From Punctularia strigosozonata HHB-11173 SS5 (Eukaryota; Basidiomycota; Agaricomycetes; Corticiales; Punctulariaceae), in the NCBI RefSeq assembly GCF_000264995.1, contig NW_006767434.1, positions 29,807 to 93,806 on the forward strand: a stretch of 64,000 bases of DNA, written 5' to 3'. Positions 27,784-40,303 of this stretch are shown here, one piece after another (position 1 is the first letter of the stretch; each line of letters starts with the position of its first letter). A model generated the notes under the pieces. The model saw only the letters and a list, made by a program, of their open reading frames with translations. It was not told where the DNA came from and made no database searches. The translations under genes and the position numbers were made by a program.

Positions 27784-27861
27784 GCTGGTATCCGAAAGAT
27801 GTGGTCCTTGACTGAGAAAATTCGGCCTCTTGCTGATGTGTTCAAGGGGAAGGATCAATAC

Positions 27862-27933
27862 TGTTAGGTGCCCTTGTACAAGGATCACGGCTGATAGCCA
27901 TGCTACTGCTTGTAGTGAATTGCGACTATTTAG
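27862..27933 (+). repeat. Left terminal inverted repeat of the KDZ element
   Basis: This pairs with the reverse complement of 39550-39621. By eye about 55 of 72 positions agree, with perfect blocks CTTGTACAAG, ATCACGGCT, GCTTGTAGTG and TATTTAG. Similarity stops abruptly outside TGTTAG, which fixes the outer border. Confidence 0.8.
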
Positions 27934-28084
27934 CCAGGCTCTGGACACGGCAGCGTATTGGTGGGCTGTTCAGCACGGCGCCGGCCCGCGGAGTTCAGAT
28001 ATTGGTATCCGTGCTTCTTTATAGCATTGCCGTGCTTCTTTGGAGGTGAGAATGTGGGAATGATCCAAGAACCCCATCCCTAGG

Positions 28085-28680
28085 CGTTTGGTAGGGCCTC
28101 AAAAGCCTCCGATAGGATCGGAGGAGCTGCTGCGTCCCACTGCTCGCTCGCTTAGCATGCTGGGTGGTTAGTAGGGCCTCGGTAGCTTCGGAGCAGTTCC
28201 GCCCGCCGCTCGGTTAGGGCGCTGGTCCCGCCCTCCGCTCGCTTAGAGCGCTGGTCCCGCCCTCCGTTCGCTTAGCGCGCTCTGGTCCCGCCCACCGCTC
28301 GCTTAGGGCACTGGTCCCGCCCGCCGCTCGCTTAGGGCGCTGGTCCCGCCCACCGCTCGCTTAGGGCGCTGGTCCCGCCCTCCGTTCGCTTAGCGCGCTC
28401 TGGTCCCGCCCACCGCTCGCTTAGCGCACTGGTCCCGCCCGCCGCTCGCTTAGGGCGCTGGTCCCGCCCACCGTTCGCTTAGCGCGCGCTGGTCCCGCCC
28501 ACCGTTCGCTTAGCGGACTGGTCCCGCCCACCGCTCGCTTAGCGGACTGGTCCCGCCCGCCGCTCGCTTAGGGCGCTGGTCCCGCCCACCGTTCGCTTAG
28601 CGCACTGGTCCCGCCCACCGCTCGCTTAGCGCACTGGTCCCGCCCTCCACTCGCTTAGGGTGCTGGTCCCGCTGCTTATG
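28085..28680. repeat. Left subterminal tandem array (29-bp units)
   Basis: From about 28195 a unit of roughly 29 bp, CTGGTCCCGCCCACCGCTCG followed by CTTAGCGCA, is repeated some 16-17 times with small variants (Y-CCGCTCG or CCGTTCG; 29 or 31 bp). Just outside it (28085-28180), GTTTGGTAGGGCC and CCGATAGGATCGG match, in inverted form, the block at 39330-39430 near the other end. The GC-rich repeats probably act as transposase-binding subterminal sites; that role is inferred. Confidence 0.8.
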
Positions 28681-28911
28681 GCGCCACTGCCCGCCTCCCG
28701 CCGCCATTGCCACATTCGTTGCGTAAGCAATCAGATGCAACATATACTTGATCATATTCGTCATGTAGATGTTCAACATTATGATCACGTGCCAGATTTC
28801 CTTTCTGAGATGGGCTCTGAATTTTGACAAGTCAGACCGCACAGTGACTTTGTGTTCAGTGGCATTGTATTCATAGTGTAGAGTGTCATGAGTATCGTGA
28901 ATAAGTTTTCG

Positions 28912-31900
28912 TTACATGTATCTAGTATTCCACGAGTTTCCGGCTTCATCAATACTATCCTCGTCGTCGTCGGTGTCCAAGTCGTCTATGTCAACAGAGC
29001 CACGTGGTTCACGTGCCGTGACCGCCGGTCCGACGACTTCGGGTGCGGTGGCGACGCGATTCTCGACAGCAGGCGGGGAAGAAAGGCTGGAGGTACTGTT
29101 ATCCAAAGGCACTGTGGAGATGGAAGTACGGGGACCAATGGCTGCGGTGTCGCCCTCGATGTGACTCACGACGTGGCTCGAAACGGCGGCCTTCGCGACG
29201 CTGTTTGAGCTGTCGGCCTCGTCGACGCAAATCGGGACATCGGCCTCGTCGACACGGATCGGAACGCCAGCCTTGTCGACGCGGTTCGGGATGTCGGCTT
29301 GGTCGACACGATGGGCGACGTTGGCCTGGTCGACGCGATGGGCGACGTTGGCCTGATCGACGCGATGGGCGACGTGGGCCTGGTCGACGCGATGGGCGAC
29401 GTGGGCCTGGTCGACGCGATGGGCGACGTCGGCCTGATCGACGCGATGGGCGACGTGGGCCTGGTCGACGCGATGGGCGACGTGGGCCTGGTCGACGCGA
29501 TGGGCGACGTCAGCCTCTTCGACGCGATTTGAGACGTTTGACTCCTCGATGCCGATTGGAACGTCGGCCGCAATGCTGTTCGTCGCGCTGGCCGCAATCG
29601 TGGCGTGGTCGCTGCTTGTGGCAGGGGGACTATTAGTATTGTATTCGCTCCTTGCCAAGGCAATGGCGACAGCATCTTGTTCCTTGCAACGTGTGCGAGG
29701 CACGGCGTACTGTATATAACGACCAATCCATTCCGCAGAAAACCCATGTTCGAGCATTATCGGGATCCACTGCCCTGCGAAGTTCCGTGCCTGCTTCCGC
29801 AGAATGGCAGCTTGCTTGTGTGCGTAAGCATGGAGACCGGCCCTAAGATGCGGTGGTGCGTCTCCACGGCGCGCAGGCTGCATCTTCCACCATGACGCTT
29901 GCCATTCGAACCAATGGAGGGTACGTCGCATTTCTTCCTGAAGCAAAACGACTTCTTCAGCCCATCGTGCCGCGCGAGCATCCGTCTTTGCCCACTCGGT
30001 GCGAATTTGCTCGTTGAGCTCCAAATCGGAGATGTCAGAAGAGGAAAGAGGGAGGCCGTTTGGAACAGGTGTCGTCCAGATCCAGGATTTCGCGTATTTT
30101 TGCTGCTTCTTGGCCACCCGGGTGGTTGTCGCATTGCTCTCACGTACTTGCAGGCGGACGCGTTGTTCGATCTCGTCGTCCTCATCCTGTCCGGGACCGC
30201 TGACATCCGCATCGTTCAGCTCCAGTAGATATGTCCTCCAGTTGCCTGTCGGATCAAGTGCTTTGAGCGCATTGAAGGCGGCACGGTACTTGTGCTTTTG
30301 GTTCTCCAGCTTGTCGGAAAAGCCCTTGATGATAGCCTGCGACCGCGTATTGGTGGATTGACCAACACCGAAGACATTCTTGCGCAACCGGGACCGGAGC
30401 CCCTGGTAGACGCGCCGAAGTCGGCGTATATCCGTGAGAGCGTCTTCAGCCTGTGCGATCCGCATTCGGTATTCGACCTTCGCAACATCAAACCGGCAGA
30501 TGTCGGCACGGACCTCTGCTTTGACGCAGGAAGGCAAGAGAAGTCGCGCATTCTCGGGGTGCGCCCCTCCGAGGTGCTCGTCCGAGATTGGTCCGTCAGC
30601 AACGCCGTCTAAAGTATCCCGAACGCCCGGACAGTCCGGCATATACACGGCCTGCACCTTGAAGTAGTTGGCGAGGCTATGCTTGAGTGACACTCTCATC
30701 TGTTGGAGAGAGACCCTTTGCGCAGCGGTGCGTTGGGTTGAACTGGTTGCGCGAAGGCGGATAGCACGTCTGATGTGAACGGGTTAGGGAAGTTCGACAA
30801 CAGTTGCGATGGATACATACTGCTTGTCCTCGAGCACGAAGCCCATTCTGATGAACTCCGATGGCGTTACCGATCCCTGCAGCAATGTCGATGGGGAGGT
30901 GGCCTCCTCGCGCAACAGCTCCTCGCGCAACGAGTCCAAATTACTTGCTAAACGTTTTCGTCAGCAAGATTCATAAAAGCGGCGCACAAGAGACTTGCCT
31001 GTCTCCGGTTCGGCGAAGGGATCCGGCTGTGAATGATCGTTCTGCCACGCGACTACCATGGAACGCCATTTCGCTACGATTTCAGATGGAAACGTCGCAG
31101 TGAAATTGTTGGCGATCTCTTGATAGGCGTCGCGAAGCTGCACGGCGTCAGGCAAGTGGGTGGTAAAGTGATGGCCTGCAGCCAATGAGCATCACAGTTC
31201 CTGACATCCACTCTGTGGAACGCACCGAGATTGACCTTCTTCCGGAAGTTTGCACCTCCAACCATGTCTTCGAGGACGAGCCTCCAATGCCCCAGTCCCA
31301 TCTCGCGGATACTTGTAGCGGCGAGGGCGAGGTACGCCCAGTTTTGCTCAACACTTTCGCCGTGTGTGCGGCCGACACCGCAATTGACGTTGTAAGAGTA
31401 GCGTGTTTGACACGAGGCGCCGTGCGCATAAAGGTGAAACTTCGGGATGAATGCCCGGATGACGAGGAACCAGGGGATAAGAATGATTGCCGGAAGTAAG
31501 GCGAAGCGGGACCGCATGTTGACGCTGTAGATACACATGATGTCGTACGACATGTTGAGGACCTCGATATCTTTGCCGACGACGGAGAGGGCGGAGGCGA
31601 CAACGAAGTCAATATTGGCATATCTGGGTGGGGTGCGAGCTTCAGACGATGCAAAAGGACATAAGCGGCAAACCGACAAAGGACGTACCGTTCCCCCTTC
31701 TGGAGTTCACCGATCCCGTTCGGCAGCATCATGACGTGGCGCGAGCAAACAACGCCGGCAATGCCGGTAGCAATAGTCTTGGAATTACCACGGGTGAGAG
31801 CCTGTTGAACGGCATTGTGCTGACTGCCGCATGGAGGAATCTGAGGACAACACGGTCAAAATTGAACAGAGGGAGGTGTCCAGCACACACCTCATCCAGC

Positions 31901-33355
31901 TGTGTCGCCTCCGAGATGTGCTTGTGATACGCCTCCGGCTCAACGAAATACGACCACCCTGACCCAAATTGCACGTCTTTGACACCGCGATCTTTAAGTT
32001 TGAGCTTGAAGTTTCCGTCGACTGCGATGAACAATGCGTATTTCCATCTGTACAGATTATAATGAGGAATGAACGTGCGCGATACATCCCGATCATACCT
32101 TTCGTCCGGCGGCAAGCTCTTCCAGTCGGCCGGCAAGTTGATATCAGGGTGCGGACACGATGGGCATTTGATGGAAAGGGCGCCACGCGGCGTGGATTGG
32201 GCACCTTCGGGGATGTAGCCGCTGCCGGCTCGCAGCAAAGACTTCAAGTGGCGCCATACTCGAACTGCAAACGAAACCGCATTACGGTGGTGCTAAATAG
32301 CCATCAATCTGTGGCATCCTCAGCGGTGCGACTCGGCATACCTTCACAGGCTGTAGACGAGCGTTATCAGCCTTGAATTCGGTAGCCTGGTAGTAATCCC
32401 AAAGTGTCGTCTTGGCCGTAAGCGACAAAAGATGGAAGGTGTTGAGGTAGTCGAAAGTGATAGCTGTACGGGGGCATTGCCATGATGCGGGGAACCATCG
32501 CGTTCGGAGTAGTTGGATATGAGGTTCGACGCCAGAGCAGCCACAGTATAACACCTTGACAAGATGCGAGCCATTTGTGTGGACAACAGTGAACTTCGAG
32601 TGAGCCGGGATGGGCGATACACACATTCGGCCAGGTGAATGGCCAAGCTGAACAACAAGGCTGCAGTCTCGGAGCGTTGCTCGCTCGAAATGAGTGCCCG
32701 TCCATTTCTATGAAGAGAGTTAGACGACATCTCTGCATCGGAATGTAGGCTCACCTCAATACTGTGAAGCGGAAGGCTTCGATGGACGTCGGCAATGCAG
32801 GATGAGCAAAGGAGGTCGTCGCCAATGCATTCGCAGCAACGCAGCTCGCCCTGGCGCTGCCCGCATTGGCAAAGCTCTATGGGCTTCGAAGGAGCTGTCA
32901 TTACGTGCAACTCCTCCAAGTAGGTCTGCCGATGCGTGTCCACCCACGACTGGAGGTGGGCCTAACGATATTGACTCAGCTCTACTGACTATTAGACGAG
33001 GAGCTGAACGTACCGTGACGGAAGAGTAAGTCTCCCTCTTTTCGTTGTCGTTCTCATCAGAGACGGTGAGGGGCACGGTGTCCATTTCGACGAAGAATTC
33101 ACGAAGGTTCGGCAGGGTGTCCGCGCTTGGCGCGCTGTCAACCTTGATTTCAGGAAATGTCGAGACAGGTCTGGATAGCGAGGGCGTCATTGTCGTGACG
33201 GCCTGAGACCCCAACTTCCCGCCGGGTGTTTTGCGGAGCATTGCTGTCCGTACTGCGCGTACTTCCTCCTTCTTGCGCGGCGGAGGTCGAGAGCTGTGAA
33301 GTTTGCTTCGTTTGAAGGGAGCACTATCGTCAGGCGCTGCGCGTTTACCGGCCAT
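28912..33355 (-). CDS. KDZ transposase with CxC2 zinc cluster
   Basis: This is an RNase H-fold transposase of the Kyakuja-Dileera-Zisupton class. From the ATG at 33355 (MAGKRAAPDD) a disordered basic region leads to the CxC2 cysteine cluster, with C-x-C (CQCG), CC-x2-C and C-x2-C pairs (32800-32890). Then come VVQLGHSPGRMC, FTVVHTNGSHLVKVLYCGC and LLRTRWFPASW. The catalytic core follows: ALFIAVDGNFKLKLKD (first Asp), SYDIMCIYSVNMRSRF (second Asp) and FIPKFHLYAHGASCQTRYSY, then GRTHGESVEQNWAYL (Glu). The long last exon contains a helical coiled-coil part and a C-terminal run of 9-residue repeats. About 6-8 exons are needed. All diagnostic motifs are present, so it could be active. Confidence 0.88.
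29290..29530 (-). repeat. 27-bp coding minisatellite in the transposase C-terminus
   Basis: About nine tandem copies of a 27-bp unit encode VDQAHVAHR or close variants on the minus strand. The unit has no stop in several frames: the plus strand reads the repeat MGDVGLVDA. Copies differ mainly by single substitutions (GTGGGCCTG, GTTGGCCTG, GTCGGCCTG), which implies recent expansion. Confidence 0.85.
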
Positions 33356-34582
33356 TGAGAGGAAGGAGAGCAAGCTTGAAAATTGCTACGTGGCAAGCCG
33401 AGAGGATGACACAGCCCGGCCCGAGACCCATGAACCAATCGGACACCAGCGGCTAGATTCCTGGGCTGACGCCCACACATATACACAGCCGATATCTACT
33501 CTTCATGGACTACTGATTAGCAAGGAGAGAGTCGTAAGTTTACACATCATCATAGGTAAAGTTGTCGAGCACTACCTTATATGTTCGAGATGCAAGATCT
33601 CGATTTTGAACGAGATCACAGTGAATCCACGACGGCTACAGGTAATATAGTCGGCCAGGATTGATTTTGCAACTTCGATATGGTATTCGTGAGGCGGGGT
33701 TGAGAACGCATGCGGATGTTGTGCAGACATCGACCGTAGTACTGCGCCGTGTAACTTCTGATCAGTATGAAACAAAATCGGGTGATCAATGCTACTGATC
33801 GCAACCGATAAACATCGAACGTACTGGCGAGGTGTTACTACAATGAACCGAAGGCGTATGTTGCGATAACGGTGAACGTACGTGCTAGCCCTGCAACATC
33901 CGGACCAAACCATGCACAAATCGATTCCTCTTGTTGTTCATGTCGTCTGCTTGAATCCGCGATGTATGTGTAAACACAATCGGAGATGAATTGCAGTCGT
34001 TAGAACGAATGTTGCCTGAGTATGTCGAGTACGTTAGCCCTTCGAACAGGACTCATGTAGCCGTTCGTCCTTGGTGTTGGTGCCCGGTATTGCCAGAGTT
34101 CGCGTTAGCTAATCTTGAACAGATAAGTCGTTGATAGTTTGAACATAGTGAATGCGCAAGTAGGATAGAACGAATTGCGTGTCAACGTTGCATCCCTGCT
34201 CTTGCACGGCGCGTCGTCGACCTTCCGCTCGTTGACCACAAACTTGCGATGACATGCTTCACAAAGACATAGTACTACTCCAGCATATACTCAGCTTATT
34301 TGGCTACTTCTATGGTATGCAATATGTTCACCAAACCTGCGCAAGGACCTTTTGGGATACACATACTCGATCTTCAACTTGCATGACTTAAGTCTCACAT
34401 CCAGCTCGCTCAGAGCAACTCAGTTTCGCCACCACGAACAAAGTGAGCCAGACAATGGCAGTATATTGATCATAAGGGTCGTTACAGACACAGAATTCGT
34501 TAGGGACACATAACAACGCGGCACAGACAACATTTTGACGAGGAAGGCGACGCGAGAGGATGACCGAGAGCGACTACAGCAA
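33356..34582. other. Non-coding interior of the KDZ element
   Basis: About 1.2 kb lies between the transposase start and the stop of the viroplasmin-like gene. No supported gene is present. It must hold the transposase promoter and the 3' end of the neighbouring gene. It is more AT-rich than its surroundings. Confidence 0.4.
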
Positions 34583-35600
34583 CTACAAGATGTACTGCTC
34601 GAATGCGGGGTCGTCGCTGACCTCAACCCAAGCATGATTCAGCCAAACTCGAACAGCTTTCGCAGCCAGCGCTTGCTCGAAGATTTCCTCGCCTTCCTCG
34701 CGGCTCGCGACCTGAAGGCAAAGCGAGTCCAAAGGTAAGGTATGAGGCTTTGCTATGTGCCTGTACCCAGAATGAGCGTGACCCTGCAAACAAGGACTAC
34801 AACTTACCAGCCTCTTACGACACCAACTCTGTTACCCATGGTAATAACGTACCAGCGAAGGCGAGCAGGAACTTCAGGCACACGAACGCTAGCGGCAGAC
34901 TCACCCCCAGAGGGTTCATTACCAGGCGCAGCACCACTACTGGACGCATCGGAAGAGGATGGTGTCGCTTGCTGAGGCGGCAGCTGCGTTACAACCCGAG
35001 CCACCGAAACTGGCGACGAGACCGGCGCATTCGGAATCGACGACGCGGCTGTGCCAGTGCGGATGGCGATTCCTCCACGAGATCGGAACAAATTCTGAAA
35101 GATGTAGTGAGTACAACATTACTAAGTTATAATCTTACTGACCATAGCATAGGATGGCTTCGAGACGTCGATGGGACCACAGACGTCGTCACAGACTCTG
35201 AAGTCGGGCGGGGGCAGACGCGATGCGCTCTTGCCTGTATCACGACGTGGCTGAGGAGGAGGCGTCAACGGAGGTGGACCTGTAGGCTGCGTCCTATGTG
35301 CAGGACGCACGCGGGCCGAAATACGGCCCTCCTCGGGAGTGAGAGTTCCGGTCGGAGATTCACGTGGCGACGAGGCAGCCGTGGACGAGGTACTCTCACT
35401 GGCCCGGCTCAAGACACCTTCAGGCCCGTCAAGGACAGGACATGTACGTGACATAATGACACTCACCTTCAGCGACCAAAAGCATCTGACGTATTTGCTG
35501 TATCAGAGAGCAGAGCTACGACCAGTCTTCAACATACGGCTACGTCAGAAGGGGATAACCGACTTACCTCCTGCTGCGCGTCTGCGTCGTTATTTTCCAT
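34583..35600 (-). CDS. KDZ passenger protein with viroplasmin / RNase H1 N-terminal-like module
   Basis: Starting at 35600 (MENNDADAQQE), two small introns join to MLLVAEGVLSRASESTSS, a Pro/Ser-rich disordered region. After another intron comes LFRSRGGIAIRTGTAASS, then the C-terminal module. This reads RWYVITMGNRVGVVRGW. After splicing it continues HIAKPHTLPLDSLCLQ, then VASREEGEEIFEQAL, and stops at 34583. The pattern YxVxxGxxxGVxxxW...SREExxxxF is that of the viroplasmin/RNase H1 N-terminal fold, which binds RNA-DNA hybrids or duplexes. The match is mine by eye and is incomplete (the usual GA-x-[YF]-K centre is weak). The gene is internal to the transposon and divergent from the companion gene. 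Confidence 0.6.
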
Positions 35601-35729
35601 GGTCATCGTAGAGATGGGCGGGAGGAAAAGAGGGAAGGAGTTGACGGCAAAGGGAGGCGTGTTTTTATTTCTCAGCCGTATCACGTGTAGGTCGCTCTTA
35701 CGTCCTTGGTTTCCCCTCGTCTTCACCGC
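35601..35729. promoter_or_regulatory. Shared divergent promoter inside the KDZ element
   Basis: Only 129 bp separate the start codons of the viroplasmin-like gene (minus) and the companion gene (plus), so both must be driven from here. The centre contains TTTTTATTTCTCAG. No further element was recognised. Confidence 0.55.
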
Positions 35730-38623
35730 ATGGCAACAGCGCAAGACGACTTTCTCAAGTCGTATATCCCACTTTACGTCTCATGCCAGTCCACTGGCGG
35801 TTTTCAGGACTTCTGGACAACTATTGGGCGAGAATATCACGCCAAATACCCCATCGTCCTCACTGCGGATGATGTAGCAGCAGCCGACGGTGATCGTGAG
35901 CTGGCGTTCCAGAGACGCACCGACAAGGACTTAAAGGTATACTGAATATCTATCTCTCCGCTGCGCATGATATTCATGGGCCATTACCAGTATATCAGAG
36001 GCTTTTTTGCAAATGGAACTCGCACGGGCATTGTTGGCAAAGGCGGGGGTCAGCTGATCCTTCAAATATGTCGGGCCAGTAGCAAGCCAGAGAAGAAGCG
36101 TACTCGCAAACCCCTTCCTTGGCAAACGTATGCAAAATACATCGACTTCCGGAATAACTTGGCCCTCAAAGCCGAGTTCGCGACCGAGTACGCCGCGCAT
36201 TGCGGTGCGCTTCCAGCAGGCGCTGCGAAGCCGCGAGAATTGACGGTCCTGGGGAGATGGCTGACTCAACGCCTCGAGTTGGAAACAGAAGAGGTGAAGA
36301 GTCACGTCGAGGAGCTGCGTCATGCCAAGGGTAGCGAGGTTGACGAGGATGTCAACATGACCGAGGACAACGGCACACTGCAGTCTAATGAGGAGACTCC
36401 TCCGCAGCGCAACAAGGAGGATCCTCCACCGGACCCAATATCCGACCCGGACCAATATCAACGGTACGTCTCAGATGACTGTTCCGTCGTCGACAAGTAC
36501 TGACATCTTGTTAGCCTCTGCGACAGCATTCCGAAGGTTCTCATGACTGTTCTAGACTCATTGACCGTCGAAACCAAATGGTCTTTTTGTGTATTCGCCT
36601 GCGGTCCTGAGCCAAAATTCAACACCGTCCCGAGGTCCTATAGGTGCGCCGCTATGCTCGTTGACAAGTTCTTCACTCATTTACCACGCAGCTACGCAAA
36701 TGGAGGGACTTCTACGCTTCCGCATATGTTTAATGCCAAGAAAGACGTGTGGCGAGCATTTCAGCAGGAGTGGGATCGATGGGGTGCAGAACGCTATCGT
36801 ACGCTCATCCATCTATAGCTACTAAACATCTTTTTGACATCTGTACAGCAAATGGCTGGTCCGGTATCTCCGACGCCATCGACAAGTTGGTCGAAACGGG
36901 CATGACTCGCGACGAGGCTATTGCAAGTCTGGAAATCATTCCCAAGGAGACTGATCCAGAGCCTGGCCCCAAAAAAGGTCGCCGTCGCCGTCGGATTGCA
37001 GCCCCATCCGAAGATGTCACAGCTGGTCCCGCTACCGATGATCCTTTGGATGCCGGGGGTGCTGCCACTGCACCCGATCGACCACGACCTCGCCCGATTG
37101 GTGGTGGCAGGTCGCAGTCAACTGGGAGCACCATGCCCACTCTTCACAATCGGCCTCTTGGCATGAACGAGGTGCAGCCAGACGTCAACACCCCGTCTCC
37201 GGTCGGCGGTCCGGCACAGAATGCAACCCCTCCGCCACGCGCCCCGAGCGAGCAGCCTGACGCGTACGACAGGGGACTGGACGCCAACACGCCGCCTCCT
37301 GTCGACGGTCCGCCACCGGAGGCGACCCCTCCTCCACGCGCCCTGAGCGAGCAGCCCAGCGTGAACAACGCGCGGCCGGATGCCGATACGCCGCCTCTCG
37401 TCGATGGTCTGACCCCTCCTCCACACGCTCCGAGTGAGCAGCTCGGCGCGAACAACACGCCGCCTCCCGTTGATGGTCCGCCACCGGACCCGACCCCTCC
37501 TCCATGCGCCCCGAGCCAGCAGCCCAGCGTGAACAACGCGCAGCCGGATGCCGACACGCCGCCTCCCGTCGATGGTCCGCCACCGGAGGCAACCCCTCCT
37601 CCACGCGCCCCGCGCGAGCAGCTCGGCGCAAACAACGCGCCGCCTCCCGTTGACGGTCCGCCGGCGGACCCGACCCCTCCTCCACGTGCTCCGAGCGAGC
37701 AGCCCAGCGCGAAGAACGTGCAGCCGGATTCCGACACGCCGCCTCCCGTCGATGGTCCGCCACCGGAGGCGACCCCTCCTCCACATGCCCCGAGCAACCA
37801 GCTCGGCGCGAACAACGCGCCGCCTCCCGTTGACGGTCCGCCGCCGGACGTGACCCCTCCGACTCGCGCTGCAGGTGCTGAGCTTGACGCGCTGTCTGCT
37901 CCCACTGAACAGGATGCGGGTTCTGCTGCTGCCTACTTGCCAACGTGGCAAAGTTGGGTCTTGGGAGCTGATGAAAGCTGGCGTTCGGTCTTGTCGGACA
38001 TCCAGGCAGACGATCTTCAAGATTGTCTCAATCCCCTCCTTGATTCATGGGTAGCATTCGAGGCTTCACGCGGCTACATCGACGGGAATCGCAACATGAA
38101 AACAGCATTCCGTCCCGCTCAAGTTCTTTGGTGGATGAACAGCCTTCGTGACCCTGACGCCATCCCGGATATCAACGACTTCGATGTTTTCGTCACGAAC
38201 TGGTGGAAATGGCTGCATGTGCTGTCGCCAGTTTGGCGACAGCATCCCAACTTCGAATCGCCGTTCCCTCCGTTCACACACGATATTCCGGAAGCTGCTG
38301 AATGGGGATATCTCACGCAGAGTGGCTCCAAGGGGATGGTTCTCGTCGTTGCCACTGTAGTATGGTGGGGCACGGCAGTAGCGCTTCAGCCCGGAGACAG
38401 GACTTCCGGCTGGCTAGCGGCTATACAGGAGCTAACTTGGGTTCTTCAGAATGCTGCCCCCCTCTCGTCTCGCACGCCTTTGACCCGTCCTCTCGCCTCT
38501 GCCGACAGTGCAAACAAGAAATCGGCAGTGTCGCGGCCGCGTGTACCAGCCAAAAGGGGGCTCAAACGGAAGGCCAATGAAAATGCCGAACCCAAGCCGT
38601 CGAAGAGGACCCGTCGCAAATAG
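35730..38623 (+). CDS. KDZ-associated companion protein with proline-rich repeats
   Basis: This is the second conserved gene type found beside KDZ transposases in mushrooms; its function is unknown. Exon 1 (35730-35936) starts MATAQDDFLKSYIPLYVSCQ. After an intron comes YIRGFFANGTRTG, then a conserved block VLMTVLDSLTVETKWSFCVF followed by ACGPEP. Splices near 36465, 36642 and 36794 keep the frame. The centre (37180-37890) is a long run of TPPPVDGPPP-type repeats. The C-terminal domain is Trp-rich: FVTNWWKWLHVLSPVWR, GMVLVVATVVWWGTAV and WLAAIQELTWVLQNA. A basic, nuclear-localisation-like tail (KRGLKRKANE, PSKRTRRK) ends at 38623. No break is seen. Confidence 0.75.
37250..37870 (+). repeat. 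Higher-order proline-rich coding repeat (about 180-bp period)
   Basis: Two alternating subunits, one with QPDADTPPPVDGPPPEATPP and one with LGANNAPPPVDGPPPDPTPP, alternate to give a period of roughly 60 residues, repeated about three times, with an earlier degenerate unit. The reverse strand stays open in two frames through the array, a by-product of the repeat composition. Confidence 0.75.
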
Positions 38624-39060
38624 TTTCGGCTTTCCATATGTACCTTATATATCGAGTGTATTGCTGGACTAATCTACATGCGTCGTTTGGATCGTAGTAT
38701 CAGCGCGTAACTTAGCCAAATGACGGTGTTCTTCCTAAAAAGGAAAGTCATACACGTGATATCAACAAATGTTTTCGAACACGTTGAAGTGTGATAAGAC
38801 TCAGCTGCACTGACTCAGAAATCAAAGTAGCAGGAAGATATGACATACGAGGAGAGTACGCGGGTCAGCGAAAACAAGAACAAGCATGAAGAGCGTGCCC
38901 TGTCAGATTTGGAAACGGCGTGAGAGCGCGCCCTGTCGGGTTTGAGATGGCGTGAGAGCACGTCATGCCAAATTGGGACAACACGTGGAAGCTGCACACG
39001 AATCTCAGGGTATGCTATGTTACACGTCTACAAGGCCCCGATACATTGGACAGAGTATGA
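38624..39060. other. Region between companion gene and right array
   Basis: No gene. A short direct repeat is visible at 38888-38960, where the pair AGAGCGTGCCCTGTC and AGAGCGCGCCCTGTC is followed by TTTGGA/TTTGAGATGGCGTGAGAGC. It is probably a 3' UTR plus the start of the subterminal repeats. Confidence 0.4.
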
Positions 39061-39084
39061 AAGCTGCAGGCAAACACAAGCGAT

Positions 39085-39450
39085 GGGAGGCGGGTAGCCG
39101 GCGGTGGCGGTGGCGGGCGGGTGGCGGTGCAATACGGAGGGCGCACACGGCGGCGGGCGGGTGGCGGTGCAATAAGGGAGCGGAGGGCGCACACGCTAAG
39201 CGAGCGGAGGGCGCACGCTAAAGCGGCGGCGGGCGGGTGGCGGTGCAATAAGGGAGCGGAGGGCGCACACGCTAAGCGAGCGGAGGGCGCACGCTAAAGG
39301 CGGCGGCGGGCGGGTGGTGGCGCAAATGTTCCGAAGCTATCGGGGGCTGCCGGGGGCCTACCAACCGCCCAGGCACGGGTTCGGATCCTCCGAAGCTATC
39401 GGGGGCTGCCGAGGGCCAACCACCCAGGCACGGGTGTTGCTAAGCGAGTG
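39085..39450. repeat. Right subterminal repeat array of the KDZ element
   Basis: A unit of about 76-78 bp containing GGCGGGCGGGTGGCGGTGCA, GGGAGCGGAGGGCGCACACG and CTAAGCGAGCGG is repeated two and a half times. A second unit, CCGAAGCTATCGGGGGCTGC, is present twice (39331 and 39389). CTAAGCGAGCGG is the reverse complement of the core of the left array, so the two ends are in inverted arrangement. Confidence 0.75.
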
Positions 39451-39549
39451 ATGGTACGGCAGCTCACCGGCATTGTTCTATAGCACCCGAGAATCGTAAT
39501 CAATGTCTGATCAAGGCAGCCCTGATGCACCGCCTTACCGCCTTTACGA

Positions 39550-39621
39550 CTAAATAGCCGTGATGCACTACAAGCGGAGCCCTGGCTATTAGCCGTGATG
39601 CTTGTACAAGCACAGCTAACA
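39550..39621 (-). repeat. Right terminal inverted repeat of the KDZ element
   Basis: This is the reverse-complement partner of 27862-27933 (about three quarters identical), ending GCACAGCTAACA. The sequence outside (CGGCTGCAC) shows no match to the left flank. Confidence 0.8.
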
Positions 39622-40303
39622 CGGCTGCACAGTTCGACGGAGAAAGGAGGAGGATGAGTCGTTGTTCAAGGGCGCGGGTCACGAGTCAAGGTAGTAGGCG
39701 AGAAGAACGGCGCGAAGTGCGGCCGCAAGGGCGACCAGGGACGCTCTGGCATCGGCCGAGAGCATGGTCAGGGGACGTTGAACGTTCGACACTGAGCGTT
39801 GAACGTTGAGATCTAAGTGATGGATGGTCAACGTACATGTAGAGGCAAGGGTGGCCTTATATAACAGACATCCACAGTAATCCTCTTGGCCTGCAGTGGT
39901 CCCAGGTAGCCGCAGCCGAACGGACACAGTGTCTGCTGCGTTGCTCCCAAGAGCACAACGGATACAAAGTATTGCCAGAGAGCTATCTCAGCCTAGATGC
40001 ATAGTATGTCGAACAAGCCGTGTCGGGAATCTCCGAAACAGCTCTTGGCTGCTCTAACATCATCGTCACGTCCAACCCATGCTGCCCGCCTTCTCCACCT
40101 CGTGCAACGAACAACGTCTTTCTGATATAAGAAACGCATCAAAGCCGCTTGGAATATAACCACATCCACCCTCACAGTCACAATTTCCGAGTCAACGAGT
40201 CAACCTGGCTGCCTCCACTCGATCTTTATTTTACTGCCTCTTCACAGGAGCCTTTGTCGTTCTGGTCTACCACTTCTCCTCCCCGTCCCTCGTACCCGAA
40301 TCT
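39622..40303. other. Intergenic region right of the KDZ element
   Basis: No supported gene. At 39773-39810 the short unit GTTGAACGTT(C/G)A is repeated three times. A minus-strand frame starting MLSADARASLVALAAAL is short and unrecognised. Confidence 0.35.

Follow-up and report, generated by a model that had tools for sequence, protein, structure and literature searches.

A KDZ transposon of Punctularia strigosozonata with mirrored subterminal arrays as putative CACTA-like recognition sites

Results

Organization of the element

A window of 64,000 nt from Punctularia strigosozonata HHB-11173 SS5 (GCF_000264995.1, NW_006767434.1, positions 29,807-93,806 of the forward strand) was analyzed, and an element of 11.8 kb was found at window positions 27856-39627, in which both ends, two arrays and three genes are readable. 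This element is almost certainly a KDZ transposon. In a Pfam search with the N-terminal 605 residues of gene 1, the KDZ transposase domain PF18758 scored 181 bits against a cut-off of 26.6, and the cysteine cluster CxC2 (PF18803) scored 120.5 bits against a cut-off of 27. The genes are the KDZ transposase and a small gene 2, both on the minus strand, and gene 3 on the plus strand; coding stretches of them are conserved in relatives on two other contigs, C7 and C14 (the genome searched comprises 33.57 Mb in 32 contigs, denoted C1, C2 etc., and the window is C2:29807-93806). An earlier note on this DNA had described a whole KDZ transposon with both ends and three genes, and the terminal repeats, the CxC2 and KDZ domains and the conserved genes bear out that description. 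The order of terminal repeat, array and gene end is mirrored at the two sides of the element (Table 1).

Terminal inverted repeats and borders

Aligned from 27862 on, the left end matches the reverse complement of the sequence up to 39621 in 60 of the 73 alignment columns (82%), in agreement with the 72-bp terminal repeats noted earlier. The local score of this match was 77, while the maximum among 2,872 random 80-mer pairs of the window was 26, so a chance likeness of the two ends was rejected. The borders, earlier set at 27862 and 39621, are probably 6 bp further out on each side, as judged from the other family ends compared: the letters outside TGTYAG are also conserved in the family, and a CA start was found in seven of seven aligned ends, one of them (C14) by a weak alignment. 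Accordingly placed, the probable borders read CAATAC-TGTTAG... at 27856 and ...CTAACA-CGGCTG at 39627, with CAATAC and CAGCCG as the border hexamers.

The window copy is flanked by GAAGGAT at its left border and by CACAGTT at its right border. The possibility that the flanks are two halves of one repeat was rejected, as no flank-to-flank similarity was detected at E 0.01. A 10-bp direct repeat, TGTTCAAGGG, lies at 27839-27848 and 39663-39672, outside the element at distances of 7 bp from the left border and 35 bp from the right one; a word of this length was shared by 50-bp flanks in 10 of 4,000 random draws.

Subterminal arrays

Between each terminal repeat and the 3' end of the outermost gene sits a GC-rich array, the left one at least 242 bp past the gene 1 stop. 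The 16 CGCTTAG-core units of the left array occupy 28149-28658 with a period of mostly 29 bp, and the right array carries two exact and four degenerate motif copies at 39107-39330, followed by a lone exact copy at 39440. The exact motif CTCGCTTA occurs 11 times forward and never in reverse in the left array, three times in reverse and never forward in the right one, and is absent from the interior of the element and from the rest of the window. With up to two mismatches, the longer core CGCTCGCTTAGC was counted 17:1 (forward:reverse) in the left array, 0:3 in the right array and 6:4 in the 52 kb outside, where the copies are scattered and face both directions. The earlier reading of GC-rich arrays in mirror orientation is therefore upheld, since all exact copies (11:0 and 3:0) face inward.

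Runs of the motif were then counted genome-wide. Triple runs numbered 48 (24 + 24) vs. none for the reversed pattern, and double runs 55 (29 + 26) vs. two for the reversed control; the triple-run pattern misses the right array of the window, which is found by the double-run pattern. All double runs are confined to eight places, so a dispersed genome satellite was rejected as an explanation of the arrays. Three array pairs were obtained, around the window element and in C7 and C14, and all three face inward; as tandem copies are non-independent, this three-of-three count is the honest measure of polarity. C7 carries 20 and 10 motif copies; C14 carries 12 at its readable end and one on the other side, beside a stretch of N. 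All of these face inward.

Over about 330 residues, the transposase C-terminus of C7 is 62% and that of C14 51% identical to that of the window element. The core motif has thus outlasted much protein divergence. The length and sequence of the units vary from element to element, and also between the left and right sides of the window element. Other matches to the transposase C-terminus are at most 44% identical, except one of 60% over 96 residues at C2:349165-349452; this transposase-like stretch belongs to an open frame of 2,543 residues, and an unpaired array is located about 23 kb away. In C14 the two arrays (C14:531184-568348) are about 37 kb apart; the three genes sit close to one side, part of the interval reads N, and cargo or a nested insertion may be included.

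Table 1. Positions of the features in the window element and of the two fold-back elements; fold-back positions are those of contigs C1 and C6, all others those of the window.
Feature	Position	Strand	Remarks
Left terminal inverted repeat, probable CA border	27856..27939	+	82% over 73 columns; family ends begin CA
Left subterminal array, 16 units, core CGCTTAG	28134..28670	+	Exact CTCGCTTA 11:0, inward
Gene 1, KDZ transposase	28912..33355	-	Ten inferred exons; CxC2 and KDZ
GESVEQN motif	31341..31361	-	Read in gene 1
SYDIMC motif	31533..31550	-	Read in gene 1
VDGNFK motif	32005..32022	-	Read in gene 1
Gene 2, 3' part	34583..35110	-	5' end possibly to ~35600; intron 34761-34807; conserved in C7 and C14; joined frame
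Gene 3, KDZ companion	35730..38623	+	Several exons; proline-rich repeats; conserved C-terminal domain; conserved exons in C7 and C14; start located
Right subterminal array plus lone copy	39107..39448	-	Inward; period differs from left
Right terminal inverted repeat, probable TG border	39545..39627	-	Family-end alignment; inverted match to left end
Fold-back element	C1:1990825-1993994		3,170 bp; terminal repeats common to the KDZ element
Fold-back element	C6:1786714-1790325		3,612 bp; terminal repeats common to the KDZ element; centre reads N

Fold-back elements with the same ends

When the genome was searched with the terminal-repeat pattern at zero or one mismatch, six ends were found, and these form three inward-facing pairs: the window element and two fold-back elements, examined within C1:1990700-1994100 and C6:1786600-1790450. 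At two or three mismatches 38 further places appeared, which were read as chance because the total of 44 is smaller than the 115 of the reversed control. The fold-back arms are about 1.5 kb long, with identities of 90.1% over 1,520 columns at C6 and 66.7% over 2,357 columns at C1, and beyond the terminal repeat neither element shows a match to the window or to the other loci compared.

With CA..TG borders, both fold-backs are flanked by direct duplications of 7 bp, GGAGGAC at C1 and CTAACCT at C6. Since the strings common to the flanks in fact comprise 8 letters at C1 and 11 at C6, uneven borders with a duplication of 8 bp are equally compatible. Of the 4-8-bp target-site duplication that is a feature of KDZ elements, 7 or 8 bp is thus seen at C1 and C6, and none at the window copy. 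Further paired copies of these ends with a fixed-length duplication, which had been proposed as a check on the element, are provided by the two insertions.

The three genes

The joined frame of gene 1 runs to about 1,290-1,325 residues, the range coming from one intron with 14 possible choices. As the introns were picked among GT-AG sites that hold the frame open, its openness is partly by construction; conservation of the coding blocks themselves was seen in C7 and C14. The active-site motifs VDGNFK, SYDIMC and GESVEQN, already reported as readable, stand at the expected places, and we take them to hold the first catalytic D, the second catalytic D and the catalytic E, respectively. In-frame tandem 27-bp units are present near the transposase C-terminus (29156-29587). 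Genome-wide, 29 KDZ loci were obtained by merging 48 matches, which are of two kinds: about ten are unbroken and score 197-212 bits, and others are interrupted around profile position 100, an intron being the probable cause.

Gene 2 was found by its conservation in C7 and C14. With 20.2 bits (E = 6.9e-4), the C7 copy narrowly missed the cut-off of 21 for PF01693, the RNase H1 N-terminal domain, and the window copy gave no match to this Pfam profile, so the name is tentative; gene 2 may carry an RNase H1 N-terminal-like domain. None of the nine PF01693 matches in the genome lies less than 18 kb from a KDZ match, and the reading of RNase H1-like genes as general KDZ passengers was rejected, with the limit that this search, by missing gene 2 itself, tells little. 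The best hit of gene 2 to a solved structure had an E of 0.7, which is not significant, and no literature linking the RNase H1 N-terminal domain with basidiomycete transposons was found.

In this genome, gene 3 regularly accompanies KDZ transposases. Its C-terminal domain gave 11 genome matches, ten of which lie 6,695-12,640 bp from a KDZ match, all ten in divergent orientation; the eleventh, at C6:1739770, has its nearest KDZ match at a distance of about 1 Mb. The pieces of gene 3 tried against Pfam gave no significant match. At 37145-37951 it contains in-frame, proline-rich tandem repeats that are longer than the 27-bp units of gene 1. A TET/JBP gene in the element was ruled out, as had been stated before: PF12851 gave four weak matches in the genome, all of them elsewhere.

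Discussion

The mirror layout is common to the window element and two distant relatives in the genome, so the arrays are probably used in end recognition. We consider it likely that they are kept by selection, and we favor, with somewhat less assurance, the reading that the subterminal arrays of this KDZ element serve CACTA-like recognition as putative binding sites. By analogy with the CACTA layout, binding by an element-encoded protein is reasonably probable as well. In the mechanism that we propose, the gene 1 transposase would cut at CA/TG borders set by the inverted repeats of about 72 bp, and the arrays would act as multiple inward-facing binding sites with the core CTCGCTTA. Candidates for the binder are the zinc cluster within the transposase and the product of gene 3, the companion gene, with about even chances for gene 3 over gene 1; once bound, the protein would assist in pairing the two ends, a task that TNPA performs in CACTA elements.

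Several observations weigh against this reading. Neither fold-back holds an exact copy of CTCGCTTA, despite the direct duplications, so insertion with these ends does not always require the arrays, and an absolute array requirement appears improbable; the fold-backs may have been moved by a relative, or the arrays may merely raise efficiency. Hence the earlier proposal that the arrays are transposase-binding regions stands in part, being favored by a motif and polarity common to three relatives and opposed by the duplications of the array-free insertions. The polarity rests on few events, given the non-independence of tandem copies. An array pair surrounds only 3 of the 29 KDZ loci, so the arrays were rejected as a general KDZ feature, and unpaired arrays with the same core occur at C2:325131-326208 and C16:471923-472064, as putative solo or decayed ends. 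In addition, no abutting target-site duplication of at least 5 bp was found within 6 bp of either window border.

It is unlikely that the arrays are by-products. On that view, a GC-rich satellite would have arisen once close to one end, reached the opposite end through inverted duplication or gene conversion and expanded by slippage, its polarity being inherited rather than selected. Such an origin would agree with the C7 arrays, which are inverted repeats of each other (197 of 197 bases identical, and 91% in an alignment of 411 columns), and with C14, where one 67-letter stretch is identical in both arrays; the array-free fold-back insertions and the units that vary in length and sequence, among elements as well as between the two sides of the window element, point the same way. 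However, the core persists at both ends in relatives with transposases only 51-62% identical, while the spacers differ. A putative role in expression, with the arrays as terminators, insulators or chromatin marks past the 3' ends of genes 1 and 3, is very improbable, even though the arrays lie downstream of outward-pointing gene ends; the strict inward polarity is expected of end recognition too and does not separate the two.

Somewhat less improbable, and compatible with recognition arrays, is that the insertion was altered after landing, so that the window copy is now a relic or its borders are rearranged. The lack of an abutting duplication and the 10-bp repeat near both borders would suit such a history. 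Against it speak the gene order, arrays and terminal repeats, none of which is missing, and the open joined frame of the transposase, albeit with introns chosen to keep it so. The mobility of the window copy is presumed.

More speculatively, and with some doubt, a KDZ clade with two-tier ends may be envisaged, in which a shared repeat of about 72 bp would serve for cutting, and family-specific inward arrays would co-evolve with an element-encoded binder (gene 3 or the zinc cluster), convergent with CACTA. In this reading, the window element would also encode an RNase H1 hybrid-binding-like protein, and the C14 relative, with about 37 kb between its arrays, would perhaps carry cargo. The three array-bearing relatives and the two array-free insertions with the same repeats form a natural comparison for the role of the arrays and for the protein that reads them.

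Comparison with known systems

KDZ elements are numerous in this genome and are reported to be mobile in Cryptococcus, and the texts consulted here are silent on how their transposases recognize the ends. In the open literature, no earlier description of KDZ elements with mirrored subterminal arrays was found, and the word "subterminal" is absent from the main texts of PMC12730594 and PMC12810828. As described in the latter text, Cryptococcus KDZ1-3 are CxC1-KDZ elements of about 9-11 kb with inverted repeats of 241, 139 and 169 bp and 4-8-bp duplications, and were shown to move (PMC12810828). The window element is like them in its KDZ domain behind a CxC domain, its similar size and its inverted repeats, but unlike them in having CxC2, repeats of about 72 bp, arrays and no duplication.

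Kyakuja elements of mushroom-forming fungi (Kojima 2025) are described with CA..TG borders, a 7-bp duplication and TET/JBP, and two Laccaria families were reported without terminal inverted repeats (PMC12730594). The CA..TG borders are common to the window element, and 7 bp fits the C1 and C6 duplications, as 8 bp does equally; in contrast to the Kyakuja described there, the window element has inverted repeats and no TET/JBP. According to the same text, Zisupton and Dileera have a KDZ transposase and 8-bp duplications, Zisupton also inverted repeats, and arrays are not mentioned for either (PMC12730594). Set side by side with the window family by these descriptions, they have KDZ in common, and their 8 bp also fits C1 and C6.

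For CACTA elements, with 13-bp CACTA terminal repeats and a 3-bp duplication, TNPA of Spm/En is reported to recognize subterminal repeats as cis-determinants, and the arrays of soybean Tgmt* elements are asymmetric, with 4 units on the left and 24 on the right, and vary among subfamilies (PMC2613891). Unlike those of CACTA/En-Spm, the transposase of the window element is KDZ, unrelated to that of CACTA, and its borders are CAATAC/CAGCCG; the likeness is one of layout only, namely asymmetric arrays that lie inside inverted repeats and vary between families.

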